NCBI GenBank assembly: GCA_037178675.1
Contig: JAYMGJ010000664.1
Coordinates: 1 to 64,000, forward strand
Source of the DNA: Scleroderma bovista
Taxonomy: Eukaryota > Basidiomycota > Agaricomycetes > Boletales > Sclerodermataceae
DNA length: 64,000 nt
Direction of reading: 5' to 3'
A program made the translations under genes and the position numbers. Position 1 is the stretch's first letter, and each line of letters starts with the position of its first letter. Below, in pieces: positions 5,224-59,006 of the stretch. The notes under the pieces are model-generated. The model had not been told where the DNA came from. It made no database searches and worked only from the letters and a program-made list of their open reading frames with translations.

Positions 5224-5865
5224 TGTTACGACCATGCCCAACTCCGGGCCTTATCCGGTCACTCCAGTCGCATCACAGCTCTACAGCTCTACTCCGGTCG
5301 CTCGTCTCCTACTCCGGTCGCGCTCACGCAGATAACCTTCCGTTAAGCACGACCCTTGGTCTATGCTCCATTCGCTCGTTACCACACTTCACCGTTTACC
5401 CTGTCTTGACGTGAGTTCTCCGTGAACTCGATATATCCTATACCTTGTAGCATTTTCACCGGACATGATTTATTTTACCCGGACCTGACTTTATTTTCAT
5501 TGGACGTGACCTAGTACTTTCTCCGGTTGTCCCTTGTCCGCCTTTTAGGCTGTTTACTTGTCACCGTATATACTCGACCCTAGTTCTTACTTAGTATAAG
5601 TACTCTGTAGTTTATCCTGTACTCCTCAGTCTGAAATCAACTTAGTCACTACTCCAGTCTCTGCCTGTCTCCGTCTCCGTCTCCGTCTCTATCACCTTGA
5701 CCGGAACCTACGCAAGGGATCAACGCACGTCGTCCTTGTCGTTGAATCCAAGCGGTCACCAACTCCGGCCGGACTAATCCCTTGTCCAGCCCTCTGCCCT
5801 CTTCCTTCGTCCGCGCTCGTCCGGACTTGACCGGACCCCCTACCGGAGTAGACCCGGACTTGACA
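5224..5865 (+). repeat. 5' LTR of element C
   Basis: 642 bp beginning TGTTACGACCATGCCC and ending CCCGGACTTGACA. It contains the promoter and transcript-start region described separately. It is rich in the word TCCGG; four CCGG occur in 5221-5340. Confidence 0.95.
5594..5637 (+). promoter_or_regulatory. LTR core promoter and predicted transcript start of element C
   Basis: GTATAAGTACTC (from 5594) is a TATA-type box. It also occurs in F (46838) and, on the minus strand, in D (33452-33441). The sequence AGTCTGAAAT at 5628-5637 begins 34 nt downstream, where an RNA start is expected. It is perfectly complementary to the site just after the LTR (5868-5877). The start position is inferred from this complementarity. 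Confidence 0.65.
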
Positions 5866-5867
5866 GT

Positions 5868-5877
5868 ATTTCAGACT
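5868..5877 (+). other. Primer-binding site of element C, predicted self-priming type
   Basis: ATTTCAGACT begins two bases after the LTR end. It matches no tRNA 3' end (no TGG start). It is the exact reverse complement of AGTCTGAAAT in the LTR at the predicted RNA 5' end. This is the arrangement known from Tf1/sushi-type chromoviruses, where the first nucleotides of the transcript fold back to prime reverse transcription. Confidence 0.7.
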
Positions 5878-5934
5878 CACACTTGTGTGGGTTCACTGTT
5901 CCATACCCCGTACGCAAACTAGCTTCTATTTCTT

Positions 5935-7383
5935 ATGACTATGACTACGCGCTCTCGTGCTCGTACCGCTGCAGCACTTGCTGAAGAAGCAGGTGCAGTC
6001 GACGACCTCCACCTCTCTGCTGCTCATCAAGCCCTGTCTAACCGCAGGCAACCTCCGGCTTCAGTTAGCCAATTCCGGAGCTTCACAGCTCGAAACCCTA
6101 CAGCGCCTTTGACTCCGCATCGAGATGCTGCGTCTCAGAGCCTTCGTGGTTCTGCAGACTTAGGTCACCATGAATCTGTTTCTGGTGATCGATTCCCCTA
6201 CCGTCGCGACCCCATTCTGGAATGTCGCGAACCTGCCCGTCACCAGTGGTTTGGCCCTGAGGACGGACCCGGAGATGATCCGGACGACCCCGGAGATGGC
6301 GACAACGATGATGACGACGATGATGACTTTGTCGATGCCATGGATGAGCTAGACCCTGGTCTGGCTGTCTTCCAAAATTTAGCAGTCGCCGTCAACCGCC
6401 TCTCCTGCTCCTCCTGCCGGACCAATGACTCTTCCTCCTCACGTGCCAAAGTCCGTGAACCGGACACCTTCGACGGTACGGATCCAAAAAAGCTCAGGAC
6501 CTTCTTGGTCCAGTGTGAGCTCTGTTTCCAGGATCGAGCCAAGGCATTCCGCCTTGATAGGGCAAAGGTAACTTTCGCCCAATCATATCTAAAAGGGATG
6601 ACCCTAGAATGGTTCAAACCGGACCTACTGCACTCCGGCGATCCGGCTGACTGTCCACTCTGGATGGACAGTTGGGTCCACTTTGTCGCTGAGCTCCAGA
6701 GTACCTTTGGTCCTCATGACCCCATCGCTGATGCAGAGCATCAATTAGAGCACCTAAGGATGAAGGATGCTCACCGCGTCATGCGGTATATAGTTGACTT
6801 CAACTGGCTTGCCTCGCAGGTCCAGGACTACGGGGATGGCGTGCTCCGCCACCTATTCTACTCTGGTCTCCCGGACCGCCTAAAAGATGAGATAGCTCGA
6901 GTTGGGAAACCCCTGACTCTGCATGGGCTTAGGGCCCTTTGTCAAGAGATTGACGCGCGCTATTGGGAGCGCAAAGACGAGATCTCTCGTACGACGAAGA
7001 CCCAATCCACCTCATCCCCAACCAAGTCCTCCAACTCCGGAGGCAACTCATCCAACTCCGGTCAGGAGAAATCCAAGACCGGTAACTCCCCCAGCTCCGC
7101 CAACAACTCTGGCTCGTCCAAAACGACCAGCAACCAGCCCTCCTCCGGTTCCAGACCAGACCTGACCAACAAGCTTGGTAAGGACGGGAAGCTGACCACA
7201 GACGAGCGTAAACGGCGTCTGGACAACAACCTCTGCATGTTCTGCGGAGGGACCGGTCACTTTGCGGACAACTGTCCTAAGAAGACCAAAAAGGCCAAGG
7301 CTCGCACTGCGGCCATCGCTGCTGAGTCTGGTAAGACGGACTCTACTAACTCGGGTGCCAACTCCGAGTCAAAAAAAGAGTAA
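5935..7383 (+). CDS. gag: Gag of gypsy element C
   Basis: 482 residues. The order is: a basic N-terminus (TRSRARTAAALAEEAG); an acidic run of Asp residues near positions 120-135; a Ty3-type capsid (retrotransposon gag) region with the typical start FDGTDPKKLRTFLVQCELCF and the later word FYSGLPDRLKDEIARVGKP; a Ser/Asn-rich linker; and a CCHC zinc knuckle CMFCGGTGHFADNC near the C-terminus (about 7233-7274). It forms the particle that packages element RNA. The frame is intact. It ends two codons after a seven-A run that probably shifts ribosomes into pol. It is very similar to F Gag (479 residues). Confidence 0.95.
   Translation: MTMTTRSRARTAAALAEEAGAVDDLHLSAAHQALSNRRQPPASVSQFRSFTARNPTAPLTPHRDAASQSLRGSADLGHHESVSGDRFPYRRDPILECREPARHQWFGPEDGPGDDPDDPGDGDNDDDDDDDFVDAMDELDPGLAVFQNLAVAVNRLSCSSCRTNDSSSSRAKVREPDTFDGTDPKKLRTFLVQCELCFQDRAKAFRLDRAKVTFAQSYLKGMTLEWFKPDLLHSGDPADCPLWMDSWVHFVAELQSTFGPHDPIADAEHQLEHLRMKDAHRVMRYIVDFNWLASQVQDYGDGVLRHLFYSGLPDRLKDEIARVGKPLTLHGLRALCQEIDARYWERKDEISRTTKTQSTSSPTKSSNSGGNSSNSGQEKSKTGNSPSSANNSGSSKTTSNQPSSGSRPDLTNKLGKDGKLTTDERKRRLDNNLCMFCGGTGHFADNCPKKTKKAKARTAAIAAESGKTDSTNSGANSESKKE
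7371..7377 (+). promoter_or_regulatory. -1 ribosomal frameshift site between gag and pol of element C
   Basis: Read in the gag frame this is (TC)A AAA AAA G, a classic slippery heptamer, followed by GAG and the TAA stop. The -1 frame is open from here through ATG 7488 into protease. Its peptide upstream of that ATG (SCIDSGSAPKEARLNASAL) is conserved in F and D, so it is probably translated. No downstream stem or pseudoknot was assessed. Confidence 0.75.
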
Positions 7384-9453
7384 GCAGCTCCCGGACCTCC
7401 GCACAACCGGCGAGCTGCATTGACTCCGGAAGTGCACCCAAGGAGGCTCGCCTCAATGCGTCCGCTCTTTACGATCCTAATTCCCTTATGCCACATGTTA
7501 TCCTCTTATCATTTGACTTACCTAAAACCCGTGCACTTGTGGACTCCGGGTCCACGCATTGCTTTGTAGATGTACAATTCGTGCACAAAAACAATATCTC
7601 CACTTACTCCGTTCCTCCGATTACTCTCCAGCTCTTTGACGGTACATCAAACTTTGTAATCACTCAAGCTGTCAATATATCAGTGAAATTCCCCGCATCC
7701 GGTGATGTCACCCCTATGACCTTTTACCTCGCTCCATTAGACTCTGACTGCTCGATTGTCCTTGGACATAACTGGCTCACCCGCTACAATCTGTTGATTG
7801 ATTGGGTACTGAGCAGTTTAACATTCCGGACTCCTGCAGAAAGTTTGCTAGCGCCCCCATCGACTCCCTCTCTGGTTCAGTCCGGTAACCCTGTCTCCGG
7901 CCTCTCCGGCCAATCTGACCCCGGCCTCGCGCCATCTGTCGACACTCCGGTTTGCACCCCTCCGCACATCTCCCTGATTAACGCAGCCGCATTCGTGCGT
8001 GCATGCAAATTAGAGGGATCTACCAAATACCAACTTCAGCTGCGTCCCTCCGACTCAGCAAAGGCTCATTCTTCCTCCGCCTCTACTCCACCGGACCTGG
8101 ACATCATTCCTCCAGAGTATCGCGATTATGCGGACGTGTTCAGTAAGGCAAAAGCCTCTGAACCTCCCCCGCATCGTGAGTACGATCTGAAGATTGACCT
8201 TGAAGAAGGTACCTCTCCACCTTTGGGAACTCTCTACTCACTGTCTCCGGTCGAGCTCTCCGCTCTCCGGACTTTCATCAACGAGAATCTAAATACAGGC
8301 TTCATCCGTCCTACCGCTTCCTCCCACGCTGCTCCGGTCCTCTTCATAAAAAAGAAGGATGGCTCACTCCGCCTCTGCGTTGACTTCCGAGGTCTAAACA
8401 AAATCACTAAAAAGGATCGCTATCCACTCCCCCTAATCTCTGATCTTTTGGACTCACCTAGCCGTGCTAAAATCTATTCAAAGATCGATCTCTGGCACGC
8501 GTACCATCTAGTCCGGATTGCTCTGGGCGACGAGTGGAAGACCGCCTTCCGTACGCGCTATGGGTCTTATGAGTGGTTAGTAATGCCCTTTGGCCTCACT
8601 AACGCCCCTGCAGCCTTCCAGCGCTTTGTCAACACCATCTTCGCTGACATGTTAGACGTCTGCGTCGTCGTGTACCTCGACGACATCCTAATCTACTCTG
8701 AGGATATGGAGTCCCACCAGCAGCACGTCCGGGAAGTTCTCCGCCGACTCCGGTTGCATGGCCTCTTCGCCAAACCGGAGAAATGTGAGTTCCACTCGGA
8801 CTCGGTAGAGTACCTTGGCTATCGCCTCTCTCCGGACGGTTTGACTATGTCTCCGGACAAGATCCAAACCATCTCCGGCTGGCCTGAACCTCGAAAGGTA
8901 AAGGACATCCAGTCCTTCTTGGGCTTTGCCAATTTCTACTGCCGGTTCATATTCAACTACTCCGACATCGTGGTCCCTCTTACCCGGCTCACCCGGAAAG
9001 ACGCTCCTTCAACGCGCTGAAGCATGCCTTCACCACTGTGCCTATCCTCACCCACTTCATTCCGGATACCCCTATCATCGTGGAAACCGACGCCTCCGAC
9101 TATGCCGTCGCTGGCATCTTGTCCATTACCTGCGCCGACGGAGAGATCCGTCCGGTCGCGTACTACTCCCAGACCTTGACTGCTCAGGAGTTGAACTACG
9201 ACACTCACGATAAGGAATTGCTTGCTATCTTCGAAGCATTCCGGAACTGGCGCCATTACCTCAAAGGCTCCGCCTCCCCTATAGACGTCGTCACGGACCA
9301 CAAAAACCTCGAGTACTTCTCCACCTCAAAAGTCCTCTCCCGCCGGCAAGCCTGGTGGTCTGAATTTTTATCTCAATTTAATCTTGTCATTCGTTTCCGT
9401 CCCGGGAAACTCGGTGCCAAGCCGGACGCCCTCACTAGACGATGGGATGTCTA

Positions 9454-9527
9454 CCCCAAAGAGGGGGATAGTGGCTATGCCCGGGTCAACCCCCAAAGAG
9501 GGGGATAGTGGCTATGCCCGGGTCAAC
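9454..9527 (+). repeat. 37-bp tandem duplication in pol of element C, starting at a purine tract
   Basis: The unit begins CCCCAAAGAGGGGGATAG and recurs after 37 bp (9454 and 9491). F has one copy (near 50710). The duplication is not a multiple of three and shifts the frame. The repeated start resembles the 3' polypurine tract of the element. Confidence 0.9.
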
Positions 9528-9754
9528 CCCCAAAACCTTAGGCCGGTGTTCACTCAAGAACAACTCTCTAATTCTCTTCGCGCTACTTATCTAGAGTTTC
9601 CGGTCCTCTGTGCAGTCGCAATCATGGATGTGGAAACACTCCACAGCGACATCCTCTCTGCACTACCCTCTGATCCCATTGCCCAGGTCCACCTCGCAGA
9701 TCCACCGGACTCTCGCTGGTCCACTGACGAGGCTGGTTTCCTTCGACTAGACGG

Positions 9755-10040
9755 TGAAAAGATAACAATGTGTTTGGGTGGCTGCTCCCTCAGATGAGGT
9801 GCATTCGACCCAGGGACTTCTGGAGGTCTGGCAAGGCTCCCAGGGACTAAGGAGACTAGGAAACTAGAGAGTGCAAGGGTGGTTCAGTCACTCCAAGACT
9901 GTGCTCAAAGATATACACTGAAGAGAAGGATTTCTTTTTTTTTTTGCTTAGTAAGCTAAGTACAAGCCTACATAGCTAAGGTAAAGAGTCCAGTATCAGT
10001 ACTACCAATCTACACACCTAGAGACAGGACTGTCTCTACA
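9755..10040 (-). repeat. Small solo LTR (family K/L/M) inside pol of element C
   Basis: 286 bp flanked by the 4-bp duplication ACGG (9751-9754 and 10041-10044). On the minus strand it starts TGTAGAGACAGTCCTGTCTC and ends TTTTCA. Related copies are at 23888-24156 and 62832-63106. The uninterrupted pol sequence is seen in element F. Confidence 0.88.
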
Positions 10041-11047
10041 ACGGTCGTATATACGTACCGGACTTGGATGACCTCCGTCTCCAGGTGCTCCGGTATCGAC
10101 ATGATCACCCACTCGCTGGTCACTTTGGGCAAAACCGGACTCTAGAACTAATCCGGCGTGAGTACACTTGGCCTGGTCTCAGGACCTTCGTCAAAGACTA
10201 TGTCCGGTCCTGTACTTCTTGCGCAAGAGCTAAGACACCGCGCCATAGACCCTATGGGCTGCTGAAACAGCTTCCCGTACCGGAGAAGCCCTGAAATTCC
10301 ATCTTGATGGACTTCATAGAGCAACTCCCTTCATCCACCGGCTTTACAGCCATCCTGGTCGTAGTAGACAGGCTTTCTAAACAAGCCATTTTCATTCCTA
10401 CTCACGACACCATCACTAGCCCGGAGCTCGCAAAACTCTTCTTGCTCCACGTATTCTCCAAGCACGGTGTTCCCGCCCACGTCACCTCAGATCGAGGAAC
10501 TGAATTCGTCTCACACTTCTTCCGGTCACTTGGGAAGGCTCTCGACATGCGCCTCCATTTCACCTCCGGTTACCACCTGGAGGGCGATGGCCAGACAGAG
10601 CGGTCTAACCAGACACTGGAACAGTACCTCCGGATCTACTGCAACTACCAGCAGGACAACTGGGCGGACCTACTACCACTGGCGGAGTTCGCTTACAACA
10701 ACGCACCTAGTGCTACCACCGGAGTCTCACCATTCTTCGCCAACAAAGGTTATCATCCCAACATCTCCGTCTACCCAGAATGCGATATGACCTCTGCATG
10801 GGCTCGTGATTACGCAGTCGACCTTGAGTCGCTGCATCAATACCTTCGAGAAGAAATGGCCAACGCGCAACTTCGCTACCAAGGTCCGGCTGATGCCAAA
10901 CGTACTCCGGCACCGGACTTCAAGGTTGGCGACCAAGTATACGTTAAAGCCAAATACTTCCGGTCGACTCGACCATCCAAAAAGCTATCAGAAAAGAATC
11001 TGGGGCCCTACACTCTCATAGCACAAGTAGGCTCTCTCTCTTTTACG

Positions 11048-11987
11048 CTACACCTTCCAGATTCCATGCGTAAAAAATCGGCACTCCTTGAGGAAGGTCT
11101 CGAGGCCGGCCGTCAGCCGCTCATTACCTCTGGCCACCGAGCGGGTGGCATCCCCGACCTGGCGCATCTGACCAGTCATCTCCTCCACCGCCCCGGTCAA
11201 CCGGTCCAGTCGTTCCAGGAACGGCCCAGGGTCAAACCCAGACCGTTTCCCAGATGGCCCCGGTACTTCGACGATGTCGTCGTCGTCGTCGGCAACCTTC
11301 GCCGCCGTCTTCTTCTTCTTGCGCTTCTCGCCTCCTCGTGGTGACGTCGCCACCTCCTTCTCCTTCTCCTTCGCTTTGCCCTTCCCCTTATCCCCTACCA
11401 GACCCAGACCACCCACCTCCGGCCACTCACACCGCTCCTTGAGCCCTGTGCATTTCATGCACGCGCGCTGCTTGGGTTTTTCCGGGTCTCGTTCGCACTT
11501 GGCCTTGTGCTTCGCACAGCGAATGCACCTGCCAAAAAATTAATAAAGTAACAAGGGAATAAAATTTAAAAAAAAATACTTACTGGACATTGTCGCTCTG
11601 GTCTCCACTCGGACCTGCCTCCGGCTCTTCCCTCGCTCTCTTCTTCGACGCCTCCTGCGCCATCGCTCTCTGCCTCGCCGCTACCTCTGCAGCCCTTTGC
11701 TGCACCTCTGCTCGTTCCTTCTCCGCCTGCTCGCGCACCTGGCGCTCCACCTCCTCTTTCGCCTTGCGTTCCGCCTCCTCTCATGCTCGTCGCTCCGCCT
11801 CTTCCCGGCGTTGCTTCTCCTCTCTCTTGACCTGCTTGCGTCGACGCCTCTCCTTTGTTTTGGCATCGAGGATGGACGCCTCGTCTTCGCTACCGGACTG
11901 GAGCTCTGGTGTTGGCGCCTTGGTCCAGTCCTTGGACTCAACCGCAGAGGGAACAGTGGGGGTGGTGGACTTAGCAGTGTTCGACAT
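11048..11987 (-). pseudogene. Antisense gene of element C: coiled-coil / six-cysteine cluster protein, truncated
   Basis: This is the counterpart of the intact gene at 52484-53534 in element F. Exon 1 starts at ATG 11987 (MSNTAKSTTPTVPS) and encodes a charged Glu/Arg-rich coiled coil; it has one TGA in frame (at about 11781), where F has a CGC arginine codon. The intron is 11529-11583 (GTAAGT to CAG). Exon 2 restores the cluster C-IR-C-AKHKAK-C-x11-C-MK-C-TGLKER-C, then a Lys-rich stretch and a coiled-coil region. The C-terminus is lost in the deletion that joined pol to this gene. All six cysteines survive. Confidence 0.8.
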
Positions 11988-12037
11988 GTTTTGATTAATG
12001 GCAGGAAACTGGGGGTAAAAGCAAGAACCGGTTTGAT

Positions 12038-12045
12038 CTTTATAG
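12038..12045 (-). promoter_or_regulatory. TATA box of the antisense gene in element C
   Basis: CTATAAAG on the minus strand, inside the palindrome GATCTTTATAGATC, about 50 nt upstream of ATG 11987. The same box and spacing occur in F (53585-53592). It is separate from the LTR promoter. Confidence 0.6.
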
Positions 12046-12139
12046 ATCCAAATTTCGTACTCAGACAATCACTCCGGACTCCACATTGTTCTAGGCGACC
12101 ACACGACAGCCTCATTGGGGCCTCATGGGTTCGGCCCCT

Positions 12140-12150
12140 AAAAGGGGGAT
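12140..12150 (+). other. 3' polypurine tract of element C
   Basis: AAAAGGGGGAT lies two bases before the 3' LTR, the position of the plus-strand primer. Confidence 0.8.
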
Positions 12151-12152
12151 AC

Positions 12153-12794
12153 TGTTACGACCATGCCCAACTCTGGGCCTTATCCGGTCACTCCGGTCGC
12201 ATCGCAGCTCTACAGCTCTACTCCGGTCGCTCGTCTCCTACTCCGGTCGCGCTCACGCAGATAACCTTCCGTTAAGCACGACCCTTGGTCTATGCTCCAT
12301 TCGCTCGTTACCACACTTCACCGTTTACCCTGTCTTGACGTGAGTTCTCCGTGAACTCGATATATCCTATACCTTGTAGCATTTTCACCGGACATGATTT
12401 ATTTTACCCGGACCTGACTTTATTTTCATTGGACCTGACCTAGTACTTTCTCCGGTTGTCCCTTGTCCACCTTTTAGGCTGTTTACTTGTCACCGTATAT
12501 ACTCGACCCTAGTTCTTACTTAGTATAAGTACTCTGTAGTTTATCCTGTACTCCTCAGTCTGAAATCAACTTAGTCACTACTCCAGTCTCTGCCTGTCTC
12601 CGTCTCCGTCTCCGTCTCTATCACCTTGACCGGAACCTACGCAAGGGATCAACGCACGTCGTCCTTGTCGTTGAATCCAAGCGGTCACCAACTCCGGCCG
12701 GACTAATCCCTTGTCCAGCCCTCTGCCCTCTTCCTTCGTCCGCGCTCGTCCGGACTTGACCGGACCCCCTACCGGAGTAGACCCGGACTTGACA
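12153..12794 (+). repeat. 3' LTR of element C
   Basis: 642 bp, about five differences from 5224-5865; four of them are CpG versus TpG/CpA. ATGCT follows as the target duplication. Confidence 0.95.
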
Positions 12795-20637: not shown

Positions 20638-21095
20638 TATAGCAACAAAACTGGGGCAACAGCAATGGGGTAGTGCAAGTGTACCTTGATAGCTAGTAGC
20701 TGGTTCTTGAAGTTGAGTTGTTTATGAAGTAGCAAGTAATGAGAGAACAGTTGAACTGTATTGAACTAAGGAACTACAGGGAAACCTACAGGGTATATAT
20801 ACCTGTGGTACATGGTCTGTGCGTAGATAAGTATTATTCTCTCCTATTTCACCATATTCCCATATGTAGTAGGTGCAGTTTCCATAAACATAGTTATCTG
20901 GAAATGTGCCTGTAATGTGCATCAGCATGTGTTATACATGTGCCTTGCATGTGATAGTTCCGGCTATCCTGTGGAGCCAGTCATGTGATCTACCAGTAAT
21001 CCGGTTGACACTACTCCAAATCACATGTAACTGTGATCTCTGGAAATCTCCAAGATTAGATTAAGATAAGATATAATCATACTTTCTTGTCGACA
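20638..21095 (-). repeat. 5' LTR of element H
   Basis: About 458 bp on the minus strand from TGTCGACAAGAAAG to TTGCTATA at the primer site. It contains a TATATATA word (near 20794-20801). The outer end at 21095 is inferred from the TG start. The second LTR copy would be outside the window, so the boundaries cannot be confirmed by comparison. Confidence 0.55.
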
Positions 21096-40442: not shown

Positions 40443-40623
40443 TGTAAGGGTGCCCTTAGGGGTCACCCATATTTGTTTACTTATGTAATACTTCCTTTCC
40501 TATTTAATGGCTTCTTGTTATGTAATATAAGACTTACTTCTTATTATCCTACATACTCAAAGAATACACATTGGTCGTGTTCTGTGTTGAGTGAGGATCA
40601 GAGAAGCTACCAACCACCTTAAA
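40443..40623 (+). repeat. 5' LTR of element E
   Basis: 181 bp, TGTAAGGGTGCCCTTAGG... to ...CCACCTTAAA, with only one CpG. Several TAAT/TATA-like words are present. I could not identify a primer site in the 28 nt between the LTR and the gag start. Confidence 0.92.
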
Positions 40624-44668: not shown

Positions 44669-46467
44669 ATGATTACAGTGAGGAGACTCGCAGGAATTAG
44701 GGCAGTTAAGCCCATGACTGAGGGGGATATACCTCGATTACGGAACCAGTGGTTCCAAGAATATAGTGACATATTAAGTGGGATGATCCCGAAGTTACCA
44801 CCCTTGCAGGAGGTGAACCACAGGATACCACTTTTAGACGAGGGCAAACAGTACTCGTACCATCTGCCCAGGTGTCCAGATGCGCTGAAACAACAGTTGT
44901 CGGAAAAGATACGAACGTATACCAACGCTGGATGGTGGGAAATGAAGAGCGTCCCGCAGGCTGCCCCAATGCTATGCATCCCGAAGAAAACTGGCAAGCT
45001 ACGAACGGTCATAGATTGCCAGAAGAGGAATGACAATACTGTCAAGGACGTCACTCCCTTCCCTGATCAGGATCAGATCCGGATGGACGTAGCGCGAGCG
45101 AAATACCGCTCAAAGATAGACCTATCCAACGCGTATGAACAGGTGAGGATAGAGCCTCAGGATGTGTGGAAGACCGCATTCTCCATGATTTACGGGACCT
45201 TCCTCAGTCAGGTCATGCAACAAGGGGACTGCAATGCCCCAGCGACGTTCCAATGTCTGATGACAGTTATATTCCGTGACCATCTGGGTCGTTTCGTCTA
45301 CGCTTATCTCGATGATTTATTTGTCTATAGTGAGACAATCGAGGAGCATGAACAGCACCTCAGAAAGATATTCGAGATACTGAGGAAGAACAGATTCTAC
45401 CTCGAGAAGGAGAAATGCGACTTATATGCGATAAGGCTTGATTGCCTCGGACATGTCATCGATGAAAAGGGTGTTCACGCTGACAGGGACAAGATGTCCA
45501 GGATCAGAGGCTGGAGGACCCCAAGGAATCTGAATGAGGTACAGAGATTTGTGGGCCTCGTAGAATACCTGGCACAGTTCATGCCCGACGTGTCTACGTA
45601 TGCCACGCCTCTCACAGGGATACAGAGGAATGGTCATCCATTCCAGTGGAGGGAACTCCACGATAAGTGTTTCCAAACTATCAAGGCGCTGGCGTGCAAA
45701 TACCCTATTCTGAGGCCCATCAACCCCTCAAAACCTGAGCCTATATGGCTCGTGTGCGATGCTTCACTTTATGGAGTAGGCGCTCTGTATGGGCAAGGGC
45801 CCGAATGGAAGACCTGTAGACCCGCGGGGTTCATGTCAAAGAAGTTGACGGATGCCCAGCAGAACTATCGGACTTTCGAGCGAGAGACACTCGCAATAAT
45901 CGAAGCATTAATGAAGTGGGAGGACAAGCTCCTCGGATTCAAATTCACGATCGTCACCGACCACGAGGCATTGGGATACCTCAAGATGCAGCGAAAGCTG
46001 TCCAGCAGACAGGTACAATGGCTGGATTATATGTCCAGATTTGACGCAACAATTGTCTACGTCAAGGGTACGGAGAACAAAGTAGCGGACTGTCTGTCCA
46101 GGTATTACGAGGATGGAGGTGGAGAATGCGCCTCCAACGAAGATATAGACTGGGCAAATGCTGACATTCACCTGGACCCAGAAGGGGACAATCTTCCCCA
46201 TGATCGGTGGCAGGAACTGCGCCTTAGTGCGATAAGGGAAGTGGGGGGTGAACCCATGACGAAGAACAGGAGGATGACTGAGCAGAAGGAAGCTCGTAGG
46301 ATGGAAGCAGAAGAGATGGCGACCAACGCTGAGATGAGTAAGGGAGATGATCTCTCCGAAAGTTCAGGAGACGATCCCAGCCTACTCGAATCTGCGGGTA
46401 GCTCACCCGACCTACCAAACCATGTACGAGCGCAGCCAGGGCTCGAAGGCGCTATAAGCGCGGGATA
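44669..46467 (+). CDS. pol: Pol of element E, first part (RT-RNase H)
   Basis: Starts at ATG 44669. The reverse transcriptase has MLCIPKKTGKLRTVIDCQKR, SKIDLSNAYEQVRI and AYLDDLFVYSE (active site 45304-45315). RNase H has VCDASLYGVGALYG, FERETLAIIEAL and TDHEALGYLK. A charged linker follows. At 46467 the frame is cut by element F. Removing F and one GGATA copy joins ...GAISAG to YKNDSVLSKVL in frame (54333 onward). The uncut frame is open, so only the insertion breaks this gene. Confidence 0.92.
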
Positions 46468-47100
46468 TGTTACGACCATGCCCAACTCCGGGTCTTATCT
46501 GGTCACTCCGGTCGCATCGCAACTCTACAGCTCAACTCCGGTCGCTCAACACTTACTCCGGTCACGCTCGCGCAGATATGCCTCCATTAAGTACGACCCT
46601 TGGACTATCCTCTATTCGCTCGTTACCACACCTCGCCGTTTACCCTGCCTTGACGTGAGTTCTCCGTGAACTCGATATATCCTATACCTTGTAGCATTTT
46701 CACCGGACCTGATTTATTTTACCCGGACCTGACTTTATTTTCATCGGACCTGACCTAGTACTTTCTCTGGTTGTCCCTTGTCTGTCTTTCAGGCTGGTTA
46801 CTTGTCACCGTATATACTCGACCCTAGTTCTTACTTAGTATAAGTACTCTGTAGTGTATCCTGTACTCCTCAGTCTGAAATCATCTAAGTCACTACTCCT
46901 GATCCTCTGTCCGTCTCCGTCTCTATCTCCGTCTGACCGGAACCTATGCAAGGGATCAACGCTCGCCGTCCTTGTCGTTGAATCCAAATGGTCGCAACTC
47001 CGGCCCGGGCTAACCTCTGCCCAAACCTCTGACCTCCCCTCTCGTCCGCTTTCGTCCAGACTTGACCGGACCCCCTACCGGAGTAGACCCGGACTTGACA
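46468..47100 (+). repeat. 5' LTR of element F
   Basis: 633 bp. GTATAAGTACTC at 46838; predicted RNA start AGTCTGAAAT at 46872-46881. Confidence 0.95.
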
Positions 47101-47102
47101 GT

Positions 47103-47112
47103 ATTTCAGACT
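47103..47112 (+). other. Predicted self-priming site of element F
   Basis: ATTTCAGACT, two bases after the LTR, perfectly complementary to 46872-46881. Identical to the site in element C. Confidence 0.7.
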
Positions 47113-47169
47113 CACACTTGTGTGGGTTCACTGTTCCATACCCCGTACGCAAACTAGCTTCTATTTCTT

Positions 47170-48609
47170 ATGACTATGACTACGCGCTCTCGTGCTCGTA
47201 CCGCTGCAGCACTTGCTGAGGAAGCAGGTGCAGTAGACGACCTCCATCTCTCTGCTGCCCAACAAGCCCTGTCTAACCGCAGGCAACCTCCGGCTTCCGT
47301 AAGCCAATTCCGGAGCTTTACAGCTCGAAACCCTACAGCGCCTTTGACTCCGCGTCGAGATGCTGCGTCTCAGAGCCTTCGTGGTTCTGCAGACTTAGGT
47401 CACCATGAATCCGTTTCTGGTGATCGATTCCCCTACCGTCGCAACCCCACTCCGGAACGTTGCGAACCTGCCCGTCACCAGTGGTTTGGCCCCAAGGACG
47501 GACCCGGAGATGATCTGGACGACCCCGGAGATGGCGACAACGATGATGACGACGATGATGACTTTGTCGACGCCATGGATGAACTAGACCCTGGTCTGGC
47601 TGTCTTCCAAAATTTAGCAGTCGCCGTCAATCGCCTCTCCCGCTCCTCCCGCCGGACCAATGACGCCTCTTCCTCCCGTGCCAAAGTCCGTGAACCGGAC
47701 ACCTTCAACGGTACAGATCCCAAAAAGCTCAGGACCTTCTTGGTCCAGTGTGAGCTCTGTTTCCAGGATCGAGCCAAGGCATTCTGCCTTGATAGGGCAA
47801 AAGTAACTTTCACCCAATCATATCTAAAAGGGATGACCCTAGAATGGTTCGAACCGGACCTACTGCACTCCGGCGATCTGGCTGACCGTCCACTCTGGAT
47901 GGACAGTTGGGTCCACTTTGTCGCTGAGCTCCAGAACACCTTTGGACCTCACGACCCCATCGCTGATGCTGAACATCAGCTCGAGCATCTCCGGATGAAG
48001 GATGCACACCATGTTACGCGGTATATCGTGGACTTCAACCGCCTCGCCTCCCAGGTCCAGGTCTACGGAGATGGTGCACTCCGCCACCTATTCTACTCTG
48101 GTCTCCCGGATCGTCTCAAGGACGAAATTGCTCGAGTCGGGAAACCCCTGACTCTACATGGGTTGAGGGTTCTTTGTCAAGAGATCGACGCGCACTATTG
48201 GGAGCGCAAAGACGAGATCTCCCGTATGACGAAGAGCCAGCCTACCTCGTCCACCCCCAAGCCCTCCAACTCCGGAGGCAACTCCCCCAAGCCCGGTCAG
48301 GCCAAGACCGGCAACTCCCCCAGCTCCGGCAACTCTGGCTCGTCCAAGACAACCAGCAACCAGTCCTCCTCCGGTTCCAGACCAGACCTAACCAACAAGC
48401 TTGGTAAGGACAGGAAGCTAACTGCAGACGAGCGCAAAAGGCGTCTGGACAACAACCTCTGCATGTTCTGCGGAGGTACCGGTCATTTCACGGACAACTG
48501 TCCAAAAAAGACCAAAAAGGCCAAGGCTCGCGCTGCGGCCATTGCTGCAGAGTCCGGTAAGACGGACTCTACCAACTCGGGTGCCAACTCCGAGTCAAAA
48601 AAAGAGTAA
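47170..48609 (+). CDS. gag: Gag of gypsy element F
   Basis: 479 residues with the same domain order as C Gag: basic N-terminus, Asp-rich run, capsid region (FNGTDPKKLRTFLVQCELCF; FYSGLPDRLKDEIARVGKP), Ser/Asn/Pro linker and zinc knuckle CMFCGGTGHFTDNC. The frame is intact. It ends GAG TAA directly after the seven-A slippery run at 48597-48603. Product: particle-forming Gag, with the Gag-Pol fusion made by a -1 shift. Confidence 0.95.
   Translation: MTMTTRSRARTAAALAEEAGAVDDLHLSAAQQALSNRRQPPASVSQFRSFTARNPTAPLTPRRDAASQSLRGSADLGHHESVSGDRFPYRRNPTPERCEPARHQWFGPKDGPGDDLDDPGDGDNDDDDDDDFVDAMDELDPGLAVFQNLAVAVNRLSRSSRRTNDASSSRAKVREPDTFNGTDPKKLRTFLVQCELCFQDRAKAFCLDRAKVTFTQSYLKGMTLEWFEPDLLHSGDLADRPLWMDSWVHFVAELQNTFGPHDPIADAEHQLEHLRMKDAHHVTRYIVDFNRLASQVQVYGDGALRHLFYSGLPDRLKDEIARVGKPLTLHGLRVLCQEIDAHYWERKDEISRMTKSQPTSSTPKPSNSGGNSPKPGQAKTGNSPSSGNSGSSKTTSNQSSSGSRPDLTNKLGKDRKLTADERKRRLDNNLCMFCGGTGHFTDNCPKKTKKAKARAAAIAAESGKTDSTNSGANSESKKE
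48597..48603 (+). promoter_or_regulatory. -1 frameshift site between gag and pol of element F
   Basis: (TC)A AAA AAA G, then GAG TAA. The -1 frame is open to ATG 48714, with the conserved trans-frame peptide ASCVDSGSAPKEARLNASAL. Confidence 0.75.
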
Positions 48610-48713
48610 GCAGCTCCCGGCCCTCCGCACAACCGGCGAGCTGTGTTGACTCCGGAAGTGCACCCAAGGAGGCCCGCCTCAACGCGTCCGCTCTTTTCGA
48701 CCCAAACTCTCTT

Positions 48714-51700
48714 ATGCCTTATGTTTCTCTTTTATCTCATGATATACCTAAAATCCGCGCACTTGTGGACTCCGGGTCCACGCATTGCTTTGTAGATACC
48801 AAGTATGCTTTCGGACACTCTCTCCTCACTTACTCCGTTTCCCCGATTGTACTCCGGCTTTTCGACGGTACCTCGAATTTTGTAATTACTCAAGCCGTCG
48901 ACCTATCAGTGAAGTTCCCCGCATCCGGTGATGTCACCCCCATGACCTTTTACCTAACTCTGCTGGATTCTGAATGCAAAATTGTTCTCGGACATAACTG
49001 GCTCACCCGCTACAATCCGTTGATTGACTGGGTATTGAGCAGTTTAACATTCCGAACACTTGCAGAAAGTTTGCCAGCGCCCCCGTCGACTCCCTCTCCG
49101 GTTCAGTCCGGTAACCCTGTCTCCGGCCTCTCCGGCCAATCTGACCCCGGCCCCGTGCCATCTGTCGACACTCCAGTTTGCACCCCTCCGCACATCTCCC
49201 TGATTAATGCAGCCACATTCGTGCGTGCGTGCAAATTAGAGGGATCTACCAAATACCAACTTCAGCTGCGTCCCTCCGACTCAGCAAAGGCTCGTTCTTC
49301 CTCCGCCTCTACTCTGCTGGACCTGGACATCGTCCCTCCGGAGTATCGCGATTATGCGGATGTGTTCAGCAAGGCAAAGGCCTCTGAACTTCCCCCGCAT
49401 CGCGACTACGACTTGAAGATCGACCTTGAAGAAGGTACTTCCCCACCTCTGGGAACCCTCTACTCACTGTCTCTGGTTGAGCTCTCCACTCTCCGGACCT
49501 TCATCGACGAGAATCTTAATACAGGTTTCATCCGTCCTACCGCTTCCTCCCATGCTGCTCCGGTCCTCTTCGTAAAAAAAAAGGACGGTTCACTCCGCCT
49601 CTGCGTTGACTTCCGAGGCCTAAACAAAATCACCAAAAAGGATCGCTATCCACTCCCCCTAATCTCTGACCTACTAGACTCCCCAAGCCGTGCTAAGATC
49701 TACTCGAAGATTGACCTCCGGCATGCGTACCATCTAGTCTGGATTGCTCCGGGGGATGAGTGGAAGACCGCCTTCCGTATGCGCTATGGGTCTTACGAGT
49801 GGTTAGTAATGCCCTTTGGCCTCACTAATGCCCCTGCAGCCTTCCAGCGCTTTGTCAACACCATCTTTGCTGACATGCTGGATGTCTGCGTCGTCGTGTA
49901 CCTCGACGACATCCTCATCTACTCCGAGGATATGGAGTCCCACCAGCAGCACGTCCGAGAAGTGCTCCGCCGTCTCCGGTTGCATGGCCTCTTTGCCAAA
50001 CCGGAGAAATGTGAGTTCCACTCGGACTCGGTAGAGTATCTTGGCTACCGCCTATCTCCGGAAGGTTTGACTATGTCTCCGGACAAAATCCAAACCATCT
50101 CCGACTGGCCTGAACCACGAAAGGTAAAGGACATCCAGTCCTTCCTAGGCTTCGCCAATTCTACCGCTGGTTCATCTTTAACTACTCCGACATCGTGGTC
50201 CCCCTTACCCGACTCACCCGGAAGGATGCCCCTTGGAACTTCTCCGAGGACTGTCGACATTCGTTCAATGCACTTAAGCATGCCTTCACTACTGTGCCCA
50301 TTCTCACTCACTTCATTCCGGATACCCCTATCATCGTGGAAACCGATGCCTCCGACTATGCTGTCGCCGATATCTTGTCTATTACCTGCACCAACGGAGA
50401 AATTCGTCCGGTCGCCTACTACTCCCGGACTTTGACCGCTCCGGAGCTGAACTACGACACCCACGATAAGGAATTGCTTGCTATCTTCGAAGCATTCCGG
50501 AACTGGCACCACTACCTCGAAGGCTCCGCCTCTCCTATTGACGTCGTCACGGACCACAAGAATCTCGAGTATTTCTCAACCTCAAAAGTACTGTCCCGCC
50601 AGCAAGCCCGGTGGTCTGAATTTCTCTCTCAATTTAATCTTGTCATTCGTTTCCACCCCGGAAAACTCGGTGCCAAGCCGGACGCTCTCACTAGACGATG
50701 GGACGTCTACCCCAAAGAGGGGGATAGTGGCTACGCCCAGGTTAATCCCCAAAACCTTAGGCCGGTGTTCACTCAAGAACAACTCTCTAATTCCCTTCGC
50801 GCTACTTATCTAGAGTTTCCAGTCCTCCGTGCAGTCGCAATCATGGACGTGGAAACACTCCATAGCGACATCCTCTCCGCACTACCCTCTGATCCCATTG
50901 CCCAGGTCCACCTCGCAGATCCACCGGACTCTCGCTGGTCCACAGACGAGGCTGGATTCCTTCGACTAGACGGTCGCATATACATACCGGACTTGGATGA
51001 CCTCCGTCTCCGGGTACTCCAGTATCGACACGATCACCCACTCGCTGGTCACTTTGGGCAAAACCGGACTCTAGAGCTAATCCGGCGTGAGTATACCTGG
51101 CCTGGTCTCTGGACCTTTGTCAAGGATTACGTCCGGTCATGTACCTCTTGCGCACGAGCTAAGACACCGCGCCATAGACCCTACGGGTTGCTGAAACAGC
51201 TCCCTGTACCGGAGAAGCCTTGGAACTCCATCTCAATGGACTTCATAGAGCAACTCCCTTCATCTACTGGCTTTACCGCCATCCTGGTCGTGGTAGACAG
51301 GCTTTCTAAACAAGCCATTTTCATCCCTACTCATGACACCATCACTAGCCCGGAGCTCGCAAAGCTCTTTTTACTCCACATGTTCTCCAAGCACGGTGTT
51401 CCCGCCCACGTCACCTCAGATCGCGGTACCGAGTTCGTCTCACACTTCTTCCAGTCACTCGGAAAGGCCCTCGACATGCGCCTCCACTTCACCTCTGGTT
51501 ACCACCCGGAGGGCGATGGCCAGACAGAGCGGTCTAACCAGACGCTGGAACAGTACCTCCGGATCTACTGCAACTACCAGCAGGACAACTGGGCGGACTT
51601 ACTCCCATTGGCAGAGTTTGCATACAACAACGCACCTAGTGCTACCACCGGAGTCTCTCCGTTCTTCGCTAACAAGGGCTACCACCCTAACATCTCTGTC

Positions 51701-52318
51701 TACCCAGAACGCGACATGACCTCTGCCAGGGCTCGTGACTACGCAGTCGACCTTGAGTCGCTGCACCAATACCTTCAAGAAGAAATGGCCAATGCGCAAC
51801 TTCGCTACCAAGGTCCGGCTGATGCCAAACGTACTCCGGCACCGGACTTCAAAGTAGGCGATCAAGTATACGTGAAAGCCAAGTACTTCCGGTCTACTCG
51901 ACCATCCAAAAAGCTATCAGAAAAGAATCTTGGGCCCTACACTATCATAGCACAAGTAGGCTCTCTCTCTTTTACGCTACGTCTTCCAGATTCCATGCAC
52001 GCCGTCCATCCCGTCTTCCACGTCTCCCAACTCGAACCGGCCATACCCAACACTATACCGGACCGGATACAGCCTCCTCCGCCACCAGTCGAGGTAGATG
52101 GTGAACCGGAGTTTGAGATCTCTGAGATCCTCGACTCCAAGGTTGACCGTCGACGAAAATCGTGCAAACTGCTGTACTTGGTACGTTGGTCCGGTTACGA
52201 AGGAACTGACGAAGAAACCTCTTGGCTACTTGCCACTGAGCTAGGCAACGCTACGGAATTACTCGAAGACTACCATGTCCGGTACCCGGACAAACCCAGA
52301 CCACTCGCGTCTATGTAA
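48714..52318 (+). pseudogene. pol: Pol of element F, complete except for a 1-nt deletion
   Basis: It has: protease ALVDSGSTHCFVD; reverse transcriptase with VVYLDDILIYSE; RNase H ETDASDYAVADILS; integrase HHCC (HFGQNRTLELIRREY, CTSCARAK) and core (MDFIEQLP, TSDRGTEFVSHFF, DGQTERSNQTLEQ); the C-terminal VHPVFHVSQLEP; and a chromodomain (EISEILDSKVDRRRKSCKLL, LVRWSGYEGTDEETSW). Near 50158-50160 one T is missing (AATTCTAC, where C has AATTTCTAC), which shifts the frame between RT and RNase H. Everything downstream is open to TAA at 52316-52318. Apart from this base the gene looks functional. Confidence 0.95.
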
Positions 52319-52483
52319 TAATACTCTCGCTCTCTGTTTCTCTTATCCATTTCTCTTATCTGTTTCCCCTATCTGTTTCACTCTGTAATATCACTCACTC
52401 TCAAATCCAGCCACTTTTCTCTATAAACAAAAAAGTAAAACTAAATTACATTTTCTATTTACAAGGAGTCCGGACCGGACCAC

Positions 52484-53534
52484 CTACTCCAGCACACCGC
52501 TGCCAGGGTTCTCCTGCTCCTCACGGAGCCCCTGGACTTCTTGTTCGACCTCCTCCGGGTCGACCTCTGCCTCGCTGTCCTCCTCGTCCTCGTCCCAGGG
52601 CGCCGTAAAGAAACGACACTCCTTGAGAAAAGTCTCGAGGCCGGCCGTCAACCGCTCATTTCCCCTCGCCACCGAGCGAGTGGCATCCGCGACCCGGCGC
52701 ATCTGACCGGTCATCTCCTCCACCGCCCCGGTCAACCGGTCCAGTCGTTCCAAGAATGGCCCAGGGTCAAACCCGGACCGTTTCCCAGACGGCCCTGGCA
52801 CTTCGACGATGTCGTCGTCGTCGTTGACGACCTTCGCCAGCTTCTTCTTCTTCCGCTTTTCACCGCCTCGCGGTGACGTCGCCACCTCCTTCTCCTTCGC
52901 CTTACCCATGCCTTTGTCCACTACCGGACCGGGACCCCCCACCTCCGGCCACTTGCACTTCTCCTTGAGGCCGGCGCACTTCATGCACGTGCGCTGCTTG
53001 GGTTTTTCCGGGTCTCGTGCGCACTTGGCCTTGTGCTTCACACAGTGAATGCACCTACCAAAAAATTAACAAAGTAACAAGGGAATAAAATTTAAAAAAA
53101 AATACTTACCGGACATTGTCGCTCCGGTCTTCACTCGGACCCGCCTCCGGTTCCTCCCTTGCTTGCTTCTTCGACGCCTCCTGCGCCATCGCTCTCTGCC
53201 TCGCGGTGACCTCTGCAGCCCTCCGTTGCACCTCCACCCTGTCCTTCTCCACCTGCTCCCGTGCTTGGCGTTCCGCCTCCGCCTTCGCTCTCTCCGCCTC
53301 CTCTTGTGCTCTTGCCTCTGCCTCTTCGCGCGCTCGCCTCTCCGCCTCCTCCCTACGTTGCCTCTCCTCCCTCTTCACTTGCTTGCGACGATGGTGCTCC
53401 TTCGCTTTGGCATCGAGAACGTCGGATTCGTCCTCGCTACCGGACTGTAACTCCAGTGTCAAGGCCTTCGTCCAATCCCTGGACTCGGTGGCAACGGGGG
53501 CAACGGGGCTGGTGGACTTAGCAGTGGCCGACAT
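52484..53534 (-). CDS. Antisense accessory gene of element F: coiled-coil protein with Zn2Cys6-like cluster
   Basis: 331 residues after splicing. Exon 1 is 53534-53110, the intron 53109-53055 (GTAAGT to TAG, 55 bp), exon 2 53054-52484. Residues about 10-35 contain RDWTKALTLELQSGSEDE. Residues 45-125 are a Glu/Arg/Ala-rich coiled coil. Splicing creates C143-x2-C146-x6-C153-x11-C165-x2-C168-x6-C175, exactly the spacing of the fungal Zn2Cys6 binuclear cluster. Basic KRKKKK (about 208-213), an acidic DDDD, a second helical region and an acidic C-terminus follow. It is convergent with pol (166 bp between stops) and has its own TATA box. Homologues sit at the same place in C and D. DNA binding, possibly to the element itself, is inferred. 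No catalytic motif is visible. A role in nucleic-acid packaging is an alternative. Confidence 0.85.
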
Positions 53535-53584
53535 GTTAGGATCGCGGAAAGAAAACTGGGGGTAACAAGCAAAACCGGTCTGAT

Positions 53585-53592
53585 CTTTATAG
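53585..53592 (-). promoter_or_regulatory. TATA box of the antisense gene in element F
   Basis: CTATAAAG on the minus strand inside GATCTTTATAGATC, about 50 nt before ATG 53534. Conserved in C. Confidence 0.6.
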
Positions 53593-53686
53593 ATCCATAA
53601 TTCGTACTCAGACAACACTCCGGTACTCCGCATTGTTCTAAGCGACCACACGACAGCCTCATTGGGGCCTCATGGGTTCGGCCCCT

Positions 53687-53697
53687 AAAAGGGGGAT
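53687..53697 (+). other. 3' polypurine tract of element F
   Basis: AAAAGGGGGAT lies two bases before the 3' LTR, identical to the tract in C. Confidence 0.8.
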
Positions 53698-53699
53698 AC

Positions 53700-54332
53700 T
53701 GTTACGACCATGCCCAACTCCGGGTCTTATCCGGTCACTCCGGTTGCATCGCAACTCTACAGCTCAACTCCGGTCGCTCAACACTTACTCCGGTCACGCT
53801 CGCGCAGATATGCCTCCATTAAGTACGACCCTTGGACTATCCTCTATTCGCTCGTTACCACACCTCGCCGTTTACCCTGCCTTGACATGAGTTCTCCATG
53901 AACTCGATATATCCTATACCTTGTAGCATTTTCACCGGACCTGATTTATTTTACCCGGACCTGACTTTATTTTCATCGGACCTGACCTAGTACTTTCTCC
54001 GGTTGTCCCTTGTCCGTCTTTCAGGCTGTTTACTTGTCACCGTATATACTTGACCCTAGTTCTTACTTAGTATAAGTACTCTGTAGTTTATCCTGTACTC
54101 CTCAGTCTGAAATCATCTAAGTCACTACTCCTGATCCTCTGTCCGTCTCCGTCTCTATTTCCGTCTGACCGGAACCTATGCAAGGGATCAACGCTCGCCG
54201 TCCTTGTCGTTGAATCCAAACGGTCGCAACTCCGGCCCGGGCTAACCTCTGCCCAAACCTCTGACCTCCCCTCTCGTCCGCTTTCGTCCGGACTTGACCG
54301 GACCCCCTACCGGAGTAGACCCGGACTTGACA
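53700..54332 (+). repeat. 3' LTR of element F
   Basis: 633 bp, 12 differences from 46468-47100. GGATA follows. Confidence 0.95.
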
Positions 54333-55868
54333 GGATACAAGAACGACAGCGTGCTGTCCAAAGTGCTTGAAGAGCCCGAACATTTCGCAACGTTCAGGGT
54401 GAGGGGCGACCTCATATATACAGATAACAGAGGGGAAGAAGTCCTCTGCGTACCTCACACCGAATATGAAGGCGACACTATAATCGCCATGATCATCACG
54501 CAAGCGCATCGAATATTAGGGCATCTGGGGGCCCAGAAAACAGCGGACTATGTCCGCAGATGGTATTGGTGGCCGAAACTAGGCCAAGAGATTGACAAGT
54601 ACTGTCGGTCATGCGCCATATGTCAGGCCATGAAGGCCGACAACCAGAGGCCAAAAGGCCTCCTACACAGCATGCCCATACCAACTAGGCCCTGGGGGTC
54701 AATCGCAATGGACTTTGTAGGTCCGTTTCCCCCAAGCGAAGGGTTCGACTATATGTGGGTCGTGCTGTGTAGACTCACGTCAATGGTCCACCTGGTGCTG
54801 GTCAATACGACCGTTAGAGCTTCACAGCTCGCGTGTGTGTACGTGAAGGAAGTTGTGCGGTTGCACGGATTACCAGAGACAATTGTCTCAGATAGGGACG
54901 CGAAGTTCACGTCGGCATTCTGGAGGGAGACCCACAGAATGCTGGGAGCGAAGCTCCTGATGTCCACGGCATTTCATCCACAGACGGACGGAGCATCCGA
55001 GCGTGCGATACGCACAGTCACACAAATCCTACGTACGATGGTCCGACCAGACCAGAAGGACTGGGTAACAAAGATACCCCTGACTGAATTTGCGATTAAC
55101 TCGAGCATAAGTAGCTCTATGGGTTTTGCACCCTTCAAGCTCAATTATGGGCACATGCCCAGGATGATGGAACACGTGGGTGAGGGGAGACCCTCAGAGG
55201 CACCGGGGGTGAAGGCGTTCGTGCATCAAGCATTAGAGAACCTAGCGATGGCCCATGATGCCATCATCGAGAGCAGAGTTGCTCAGACGTATCACGCAAA
55301 CAAGCGGAAGGGTGTGCCACCCAGGTTTGAGGTTGGGGACCTCGTATACTTATCGACTCAGAATCTGAACATGCCCAAGGGGCGTGCAAGGAAATTGATC
55401 CCCAAATACATTGGACCGATTAAGGTCATGAGGCGGGACACCGCCAGCGATACCTACACTCTGGATTTACCTACTGAGCTTAAGGCTCATAGAATACACT
55501 CTACATTCCACGTCGGGGTGCTGAAGCGGCACGAGCCCAATGACGACGCGCTGTTCCCGAAACGAGATGCGCAAGCATTCTACGACGTGGGGAATGATGA
55601 GGAGATTGAATGGGTAGTCGACGAGGTATTAGCCCATAGGTGGGCCGACAACAAGGTAGAGTTCCTTGTTAAATGGAACTTGGGCGACACCACATGGGAG
55701 CCATACGCCCACTGTAGGGATCTTGAGGCCCTGGACAGATACCTCGAACTGCAAGGGGTGGCGTCAATACGACGGCTACCCCGTAAGGCTGATGAATTGC
55801 GCGTCAACGCGTGGAGTACGGATGCAATCAGGGGGAGTAACCCTCAGGGGACGAGATGGAACCGTTGA
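54333..55868 (+). CDS. pol: Pol of element E, second part (integrase-chromodomain)
   Basis: It continues the frame of 44669-46467. The integrase zinc region is HRILGHLGAQKTADYVRRWY followed by CRSCAIC. The core has MDFVGPF, VSDRDAKFTSAFW and HPQTDGASERAIRT with the D, D, E residues in place. The integrase C-terminal part has FEVGDLVYLSTQNL and HSTFHVGVLKRH. A chromodomain-like end is EWVVDEVLAHRWADNKVEFL followed by VKWNLGDTTWEPYAH. It ends TGA at 55866-55868. It has no ATG of its own at the start, because it is the back half of a gene cut by element F. Confidence 0.9.
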   Translation, partial: GYKNDSVLSKVLEEPEHFATFRVRGDLIYTDNRGEEVLCVPHTEYEGDTIIAMIITQAHRILGHLGAQKTADYVRRWYWWPKLGQEIDKYCRSCAICQAMKADNQRPKGLLHSMPIPTRPWGSIAMDFVGPFPPSEGFDYMWVVLCRLTSMVHLVLVNTTVRASQLACVYVKEVVRLHGLPETIVSDRDAKFTSAFWRETHRMLGAKLLMSTAFHPQTDGASERAIRTVTQILRTMVRPDQKDWVTKIPLTEFAINSSISSSMGFAPFKLNYGHMPRMMEHVGEGRPSEAPGVKAFVHQALENLAMAHDAIIESRVAQTYHANKRKGVPPRFEVGDLVYLSTQNLNMPKGRARKLIPKYIGPIKVMRRDTASDTYTLDLPTELKAHRIHSTFHVGVLKRHEPNDDALFPKRDAQAFYDVGNDEEIEWVVDEVLAHRWADNKVEFLVKWNLGDTTWEPYAHCRDLEALDRYLELQGVASIRRLPRKADELRVNAWSTDAIRGSNPQGTRWNR

Positions 55869-58825: not shown

Positions 58826-59006
58826 TGTAAGGGTGCCCTTAGGGGTCACCCATATTTGTTTACTTATGTAATACTTCCTTTCCTATTTAATGGCTTCTTG
58901 TTATGTAATATAAGACTTACTTCTTATTATCCTACATACTCAAAGAATACACATTGGTCGTGTTCTGTGTTGAGTGAGGATCAGAGAAGCTACCAACCAC
59001 CTTAAA
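58826..59006 (+). repeat. 3' LTR of element E
   Basis: 181 bp, no difference from 40443-40623 that I can see. GAAAT follows. Confidence 0.93.

Follow-up and report, generated by a model that had tools for sequence, protein, structure and literature searches.

VANDALs are DNA transposons of the Mutator type. In Arabidopsis, they encode the anti-silencing proteins VANC (PMC5735166, PMC10398659; accessible parts of both texts). The short word differs between related VANC proteins: VANC21 is paired with YAGTATTAY, VANC6 with AGTTGTCC and AGTTGTAC, and the system entails a loss of methylation (PMC5735166, accessible part). Fungal DNA transposons can carry TET/JBP dioxygenases, which are thought to aid escape from methylation-based silencing (PMC12730594, accessible part). 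These carriers are DNA transposons, whereas the element described below is an LTR retrotransposon.

Among LTR elements, the antisense gene brtn was reportedly described by Zhao in 2011 in Boty-like elements of Botrytis cinerea. Boty is the known fungal case (PMC7264820; cited in PMC8365987; both accessible in part). In both cases, a fungal Ty3 element carries its accessory gene in antisense between pol and the 3' LTR, but the host of Boty is an ascomycete, and the accessible text mentions neither a zinc cluster nor a word system for brtn. Antisense extra ORFs (aORFs) of plant Ty3 elements, which the initial annotation had mentioned, comprise Grande gene23, RIRE2 and Retand with TRP28 (PMC7264820, PMC11963269, accessible parts). 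According to a 2020 review, the function of Ty3 antisense accessory genes was still unknown (PMC7264820, accessible part). The plant aORFs share with our gene the position, the orientation, the presence in most copies and a suspected nuclear or DNA-binding role, and in Grande there is an own promoter. Their domains are different, and the accessible passages describe neither a spliced zinc cluster nor a matching element-wide word. HBZ of HTLV-1 is a bZIP protein with a promoter inside the LTR, and is not known to be accompanied by dispersed words. It is mentioned in PMC11963269 (accessible part) and resembles our gene in being an antisense-encoded nuclear regulator with a coil at the 3' end of a retroelement. 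In the open-licence literature, as far as its texts were accessible and with most subscription papers outside this scope, neither a zinc-cluster gene antisense to a retrotransposon nor an element-wide cognate word in an LTR element was found. Fungal Ty3 elements with antisense genes have been described before; the zinc cluster and the word system were not found in print.

The gene described here lies in a stretch of 64,000 nt from Scleroderma bovista, which was analysed as a whole and is called the window. It belongs to element F (Table 1). With gag, protease, RT, RNase H, integrase and chromodomain between two LTRs, and with GGATA duplicated at the target on both sides (46463-46467 and 54333-54337), this element has all hallmarks of a Ty3 chromovirus. 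In the window copy, pol is split over two overlapping frames, 48714-50435 and 50195-52318; five other copies examined have a single pol frame of 1244-1248 residues.

Table 1. Positions of element F, its antisense gene and a related element in the window
Feature	Position	Strand	Remarks
Element F, Ty3-type LTR retrotransposon with chromodomain integrase	46468..54332	+	7.9 kb; 117 CCGG
5' LTR of element F	46468..47100	+	633 nt; mismatches to the 3' LTR at 12 positions
gag frame of element F	47170..48609	+	Retrotrans_gag; zinc knuckle under the Pfam cut-off
pol of element F (protease, RT, RNase H, integrase, chromodomain)	48714..52318	+	
Antisense gene of element F	52484-53534	-	two exons, 331 residues; between pol and 3' LTR
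Exon 2	52484..53054	-	six-cysteine cluster, basic run, predicted long helix, acidic tail, stop
Six-cysteine cluster, residues 143-175	52955..53053	-	C-x2-C-x6-C-x11-C-x2-C-x6-C
Intron	53055..53109	-	GTAAGT...TAG, 55 nt
Exon 1	53110..53534	-	start codon, coil-like N-terminal part; residues 1-141 and two bases
TATA-box-like TCTATAAAG	53585..53593	-	5' of the antisense start codon
TACCGGAGTG word	53616..53625	-	5' of the TATA-like box
Polypurine tract of element F	53686..53699	+	adjoins the 3' LTR
3' LTR of element F	53700..54332	+	633 nt
Second F-family element	5224..12794	+	107 CCGG; LTRs 99.2% identical
Antisense gene of the second element	11069-11987	-	broken

The initial annotation had proposed a spliced antisense gene with a six-cysteine cluster at this place. 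The same two-exon frame is obtained on re-translation at the positions in Table 1, the cysteines have the spacing claimed, and the codon completed by splicing directly precedes the first cysteine codon. According to the initial annotation, the cluster requires removal of the intron; the unspliced frame terminates after 142 residues. The coil-like N-terminus, the basic run and the acidic tail are seen on inspection by eye.

A search of the genome (51.8 Mb, 850 contigs; 40 of 218 candidate places scored, all 40 read) yielded at least 40 places with 82-100% identity to the antisense gene. All 40 have GT-AG splice sites, the donor being GTAAGT in 37 and the acceptor CAG in all except the window copy, which has TAG. 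Exon 1 always has a length of 2 mod 3 (305-449 nt; this means little for two copies cut off upstream), and the introns of 48-62 nt are spread over all three length classes mod 3 (17, 12 and 11). The LTR end and the polypurine tract are found just upstream of the antisense gene, exactly so in 37 of 40 copies. The TATA-like box is present in 38, 46-60 nt before the ATG, and the two copies without it are cut off there. CCGGAGT lies between polypurine tract and box in 32 of 40.

In 26 of the 40 copies the spliced frame is intact, in 14 it is broken, and all 26 intact copies have the six cysteines at the window copy's spacing. Across 325 pairs of the intact copies, which are not independent and were selected for intactness, dN/dS is 0.158 in frame versus 1.73 and 1.23 in the shifted frames. 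It is lowest in the cysteine region (0.107) and in the C-terminal helix region (0.102). Eight copies with both genes readable give 0.095 for pol and 0.197 for the antisense gene. The antisense gene is a real gene under purifying selection. It qualifies as an antisense aORF between pol and 3' LTR by its position, its orientation, and its presence and selection across copies. The initial annotation had named the lack of same-place homologues with conserved cysteines as evidence against the gene; such homologues exist, both as the 26 intact copies and as versions in the same slot of two sister subfamilies. A role of the antisense transcript as RNA only, in dsRNA control as proposed for plant antisense ORFs (PMC7264820, accessible part), with a frame that has no meaning of its own or stems from a host gene captured in part, is largely refuted as the sole role: The low dN/dS, the many intact frames and the conserved cysteines leave it next to no probability, as do the homologues that sister subfamilies carry and the gene models of Scleroderma citrinum that are related. 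Synonymous distances of pol and the antisense gene correlate with 0.49, and in 12 of 28 pairs they are more than 0.12 apart, so the antisense gene has been reshuffled between copies. The disagreement is strong in some pairs, as in L020-L023 (from the set L009-L023) with 0.577 in pol and 0.036 in the antisense gene, and points to recombination between copies.

Zn2Cys6 domains (PF00172) have the spacing C-x2-C-x6-C-x5-12-C-x2-C-x6-8-C, and their factors typically bind CGG sites. The window copy and all 26 intact copies of this antisense protein (type A) obey this rule, and the element's words have a CGG core. In addition, a coil lies beside the cluster, as in Zn2Cys6 factors. The type-A protein differs from these factors by a cluster located mid-protein after an intron and by its residence in a retrotransposon; in the related types B and C described below, the first loop is longer (x8 and x9, respectively). 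Whereas the spacing supports the Zn2Cys6-type cluster of the initial annotation, the PF00172 profile does not: The window copy scores 11.4-12.0 bits with a gathering score of 21, and the genome's 47 PF00172 matches include no type-A place out of the 40. Two type-B copies, on C246 and C686, reach this cut-off together with their in-frame neighbours (23.2 and 22.8). The label Zn2Cys6-type is used because of the spacing, these two copies and the CGG-type words. The window protein can fairly be called Zn2Cys6-like, formal PF00172 membership not being reached. PF00172 is also the commonest family among the relatives of type A (7 of 42 at E<=1) and type B (11 of 36 at E<=0.1).

Related proteins number at least 101 for type A and at least 66 for type C, each among the 8000 scored candidates that share most words with the query; for type B they number 124, of which 120 were listed. 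Nearly all are from metagenome sources, and many type-A ones have about the length of exon 2, as expected from gene callers that do not splice. The relatives include gene models of Scleroderma citrinum (Boletales), eight for type B and five for type C. All six cysteines are present in seven of the eight; the first two are missing in P0212. AlphaFold, run without zinc, models the cluster with low confidence (pLDDT about 52-61 in one job, 42-48 in another), and short helices after both CxxC are seen in the type-B model only, again with low confidence. A long helix is confidently predicted at exon-2 residues 98-150 (pLDDT about 97 over the core) and could serve self-association. Searching solved structures by sequence with type-B material gave one match at chance level each.

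Element F is rich in a word that contains CGG, which the initial annotation does not mention. CCGGA is its most enriched 5-mer, with 113 occurrences where the remainder of the window would predict 11.5. Full 1-kb bins contain 9-20 CCGG within the two F-family elements and 0-7 elsewhere, except for one bin outside both (21000-22000) with 12. Under synonymous-codon shuffling, the excess persists in coding DNA. In pol of six copies, 53-66 CCGGA face 20-26 expected, in gag of the window copy 19 face 8.5, and none of 200 shuffles reached the observed count in any of these cases. Four antisense coding sequences have a weaker excess (9-12 versus 5.0-7.3, reached by 0 to 5 of 200 shuffles), and four ORFs of neighbouring window elements have none. 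In pol ORFs of three copies, CCGGA ranks first among 5-mers and ACCGGA first among 6-mers under this shuffling. The sense strand of L010 contains 28 CCGGA versus 11.2 and 33 TCCGG versus 12.5 expected. As both orientations are enriched, the word belongs to double-stranded DNA. It is also kept: In a comparison of six copies, 84.8% of CCGG cells are conserved, the second-best value of the tetramers counted, and the other nine NCGN tetramers reach 57.8-75.3%.

The word is densest in the LTRs, with 19.0 and 23.7 CCGG per kb; their 12 (5') and 15 (3') CCGG compare with dinucleotide-shuffle means of 2.7 and 3.0. ACCGGAGT occurs four times per LTR (in the 3' LTR counted over both strands) and once 5' of the antisense TATA-like box, where most copies have CCGGAGT. 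Such a distribution would be expected of a conventional LTR regulator in the manner of HBZ. It would bind only the LTR and the antisense promoter and tune gag-pol transcription up or down, with incidental words in the coding regions; the antisense orientation, the splicing, the position next to the 3' LTR and the coil-like protein fit such a role as well. We regard it as unlikely, since gag and pol have 12.5 and 13.6 CCGG per kb versus 4.8 at window positions 1-40000 (second element included), and an excess that survives synonymous nulls would be needless for action on the LTR alone. With words throughout the coding DNA, an element-covering anti-silencing protein fits better than a plain LTR switch.

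To place the word in a wider context, 18 further Ty3 3' ends were picked for their spread in score and frame length, that is non-randomly, from the 150 scored of 615 integrase candidates among other sources. A type-A antisense gene is present in four, type B in two and type C in two; nine yielded neither A nor B, and L064 stands apart. L049, L050 and L054, whose integrase is 95-96% identical to that of F, combine a type-A gene with the CCGG word. A search for the cysteine pattern located it in L050 and L054 but not in L049. In L063 (integrase 97%), the antisense protein is 48% identical to that of F over exon 2, and the word is CCGG as in F. The first half of its cluster is altered (CVRCTKFGVQC), the second half is similar and the word is unchanged, hinting that the second half sets the specificity. 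The truncated L064, with an integrase 94% F-like, has no antisense gene within the stretch; its integrase part contains 10 CCGG and 2 CCGA.

Type B is found in L047 and L048 (integrase 85-86%). In the same slot, they encode a diverged two-exon antisense protein with 27-28% identity in the best stretch and a cluster C-x2-C-x8-C-x10-C-x2-C-x6-C. The run TSPRGGEKRK is common to types A and B, and both proteins are homologous (hhalign E 1.6e-9). The two type-B genes compared have a dN/dS of about 0.22 (0.027/0.123). In their integrase, CCGA is the top tetramer and CCGG is scarce, and CCGA is again on top in L055 and L056, the upstream pol of the same elements. In the integrase, which is homologous between the two types (374 of 441 residues the same), CCGG and CCGA number 20-25 and 2-4 in four elements of type A, and 2 and 33-37 in the two elements of type B. 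Sites of the two words lie within 2 nt of each other in 5 of 20 cases. Type C, in L065 and L066 (73-78% over the aligned pol region), is a third antisense protein with an uninterrupted frame of 319 residues within the stretch. Its top tetramer is CGGA, mostly preceded by G or T. ACCGGA accompanies type A, (A/C)CCGA type B and (G/T)CGGA type C, with a common CGG core. In three lineages, the word type goes with the protein type.

A strict null keeping protein, codon usage and junction dinucleotides was applied to 32 ORFs, a set without L064, without pol of L009 and L011, which exceeds 1000 residues, and without any copy whose pol is broken or short. CCGG or CGGA is the top word in 13 of 13 type-A ORFs (CCGG z 3.3-8.0), CCGA in four of four type-B ORFs from two elements (z 4.7-7.0) and CGGA in both type-C ORFs, which are from closely related elements (z 5.7 and 4.7). 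CCGG is under expectation in all ORFs of types B and C. None of these words is on top in the 13 controls (nine distant Ty3 ORFs and four ORFs of neighbouring window elements); presence of gene and word is confounded with ancestry in this comparison because the controls are distant, their integrase being at most 49% identical over aligned pieces. The highest control z for the three words is 2.9 (L052, CCGA). Each control has a different top word, with z of 2.7-4.8, so weak single values as in L054 (3.3) and L066 (4.7) mean little alone. The weight of the strict test is in the recurrence of one word throughout the elements of a type. The 2.8-kb control stretches were searched for antisense types A and B. 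In one of them, L059, where neither was found, CGTC is enriched in the Ty3 frame (739 residues, from base 400 of the turned stretch) with z 4.9 and 3.8 under two nulls.

Could the words be a mutational by-product of context-dependent CpG methylation and deamination, or reflect a codon-pair bias of the host? Each of them contains CpG, and 369 of 573 lost CCGG cells became CCAG or CTGG. However, opposite contexts, CCGG and CCGA, are preferred in one genome by elements with 85% identical integrase, so that neither host codon-pair bias nor a general CpG context effect is easily the cause, and the words lead in none of the control ORFs. Such an origin is very improbable. CpG observed/expected is 0.84-1.23 in the stretches of types A, B and C and 0.50-0.99 in the nine controls; a conclusion on hypomethylation was set aside, as the words themselves contain CpG. 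A regular spacing of CCGG was not upheld either: The gaps cluster near 9-11, 15-16 and 20-23 nt, but the periodogram exceeds the 95% level of a jittered null in only four of eight copies, three with periods near 11.1 nt and one near 4.9.

The word might also have another reader, be it a host factor, Gag or integrase, in which case the antisense protein would serve a different purpose. Gag does differ between types A and B, with 59-60% identity (residues 140-445, best local). PR-RT retains 70%, and integrase remains 85-86% identical despite the change of the word. The antisense protein is the most diverged, its cluster is of a CGG-reading type, and enrichment on both strands speaks against an RNA-binding reader. 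Together, this makes another reader rather doubtful. Because of its divergence between A and B, the cluster type and the long predicted helix, we infer that the antisense protein binds the word of its own element.

The explanation that accounts best for these data, and that we consider probable, is that the antisense-encoded protein binds its own element's word and keeps the element active, with co-divergence of protein and word. In this scenario, an accessory antisense gene of a Ty3 chromovirus family would encode a coil-rich protein that reads, through its Zn2Cys6-like cluster, a word with a CGG core (ACCGGA in element F). Over time, the element would have gathered this word on both strands along LTRs, gag, pol and the antisense promoter, so that the protein might recognise and cover the DNA of its own family. 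In sister subfamilies, the protein would have diverged and the word changed along with it. Activation or anti-silencing may be the outcome: The chromatin of the element would likely be kept open and transcribed, as by VANC in VANDAL transposons. We also lean towards a more specific view, in which each lineage possesses a private antisense-encoded DNA-recognition code that is written by synonymous choice through the coding sequence, switched together with the protein, and marks the lineage's own DNA for activity. The best explanation draws on three protein-word lineages only, of which type C consists of two near-identical elements, one having a z (4.7) that top words of the controls reach as well. 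Counted against it are the difference in gag between A and B, the weak CCGGA excess in the antisense coding sequence (e.g. 11 versus 7.3), the PF00172 score, the low confidence of the cluster models and the irregular CCGG spacing.

As in VANC, an element-encoded protein has related versions paired with different short words, and these words are enriched in the own element family and differ with the protein, here in three lineages. VANC words are confined to noncoding tandem repeats, whereas those of the F family also occur in gag and pol. Binding and demethylation were shown for VANC; the F family is known here from sequence, and the likeness concerns the way of working, with no claim of VANC membership. 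For this antisense gene, the sequence itself proposes a function and names the target words, and the three protein-word pairs provide built-in cross controls. If the proposal holds true, LTR retrotransposons, too, have evolved a sequence-specific recognition of their own DNA, which can shape synonymous sites along an entire element. The three types would then represent a series, provided by nature, of zinc-cluster domains whose specificity has shifted.

Element F is apparently nested within another retroelement. Repeats of 181 nt with 100% identity, 40443-40623 and 58826-59006, are located on either side of it. The LTRs of F differ at 12 of 633 places, although F would be expected to be the younger insertion compared to the identical enclosing repeats. 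LTR mosaicism or gene conversion in element F is possible.
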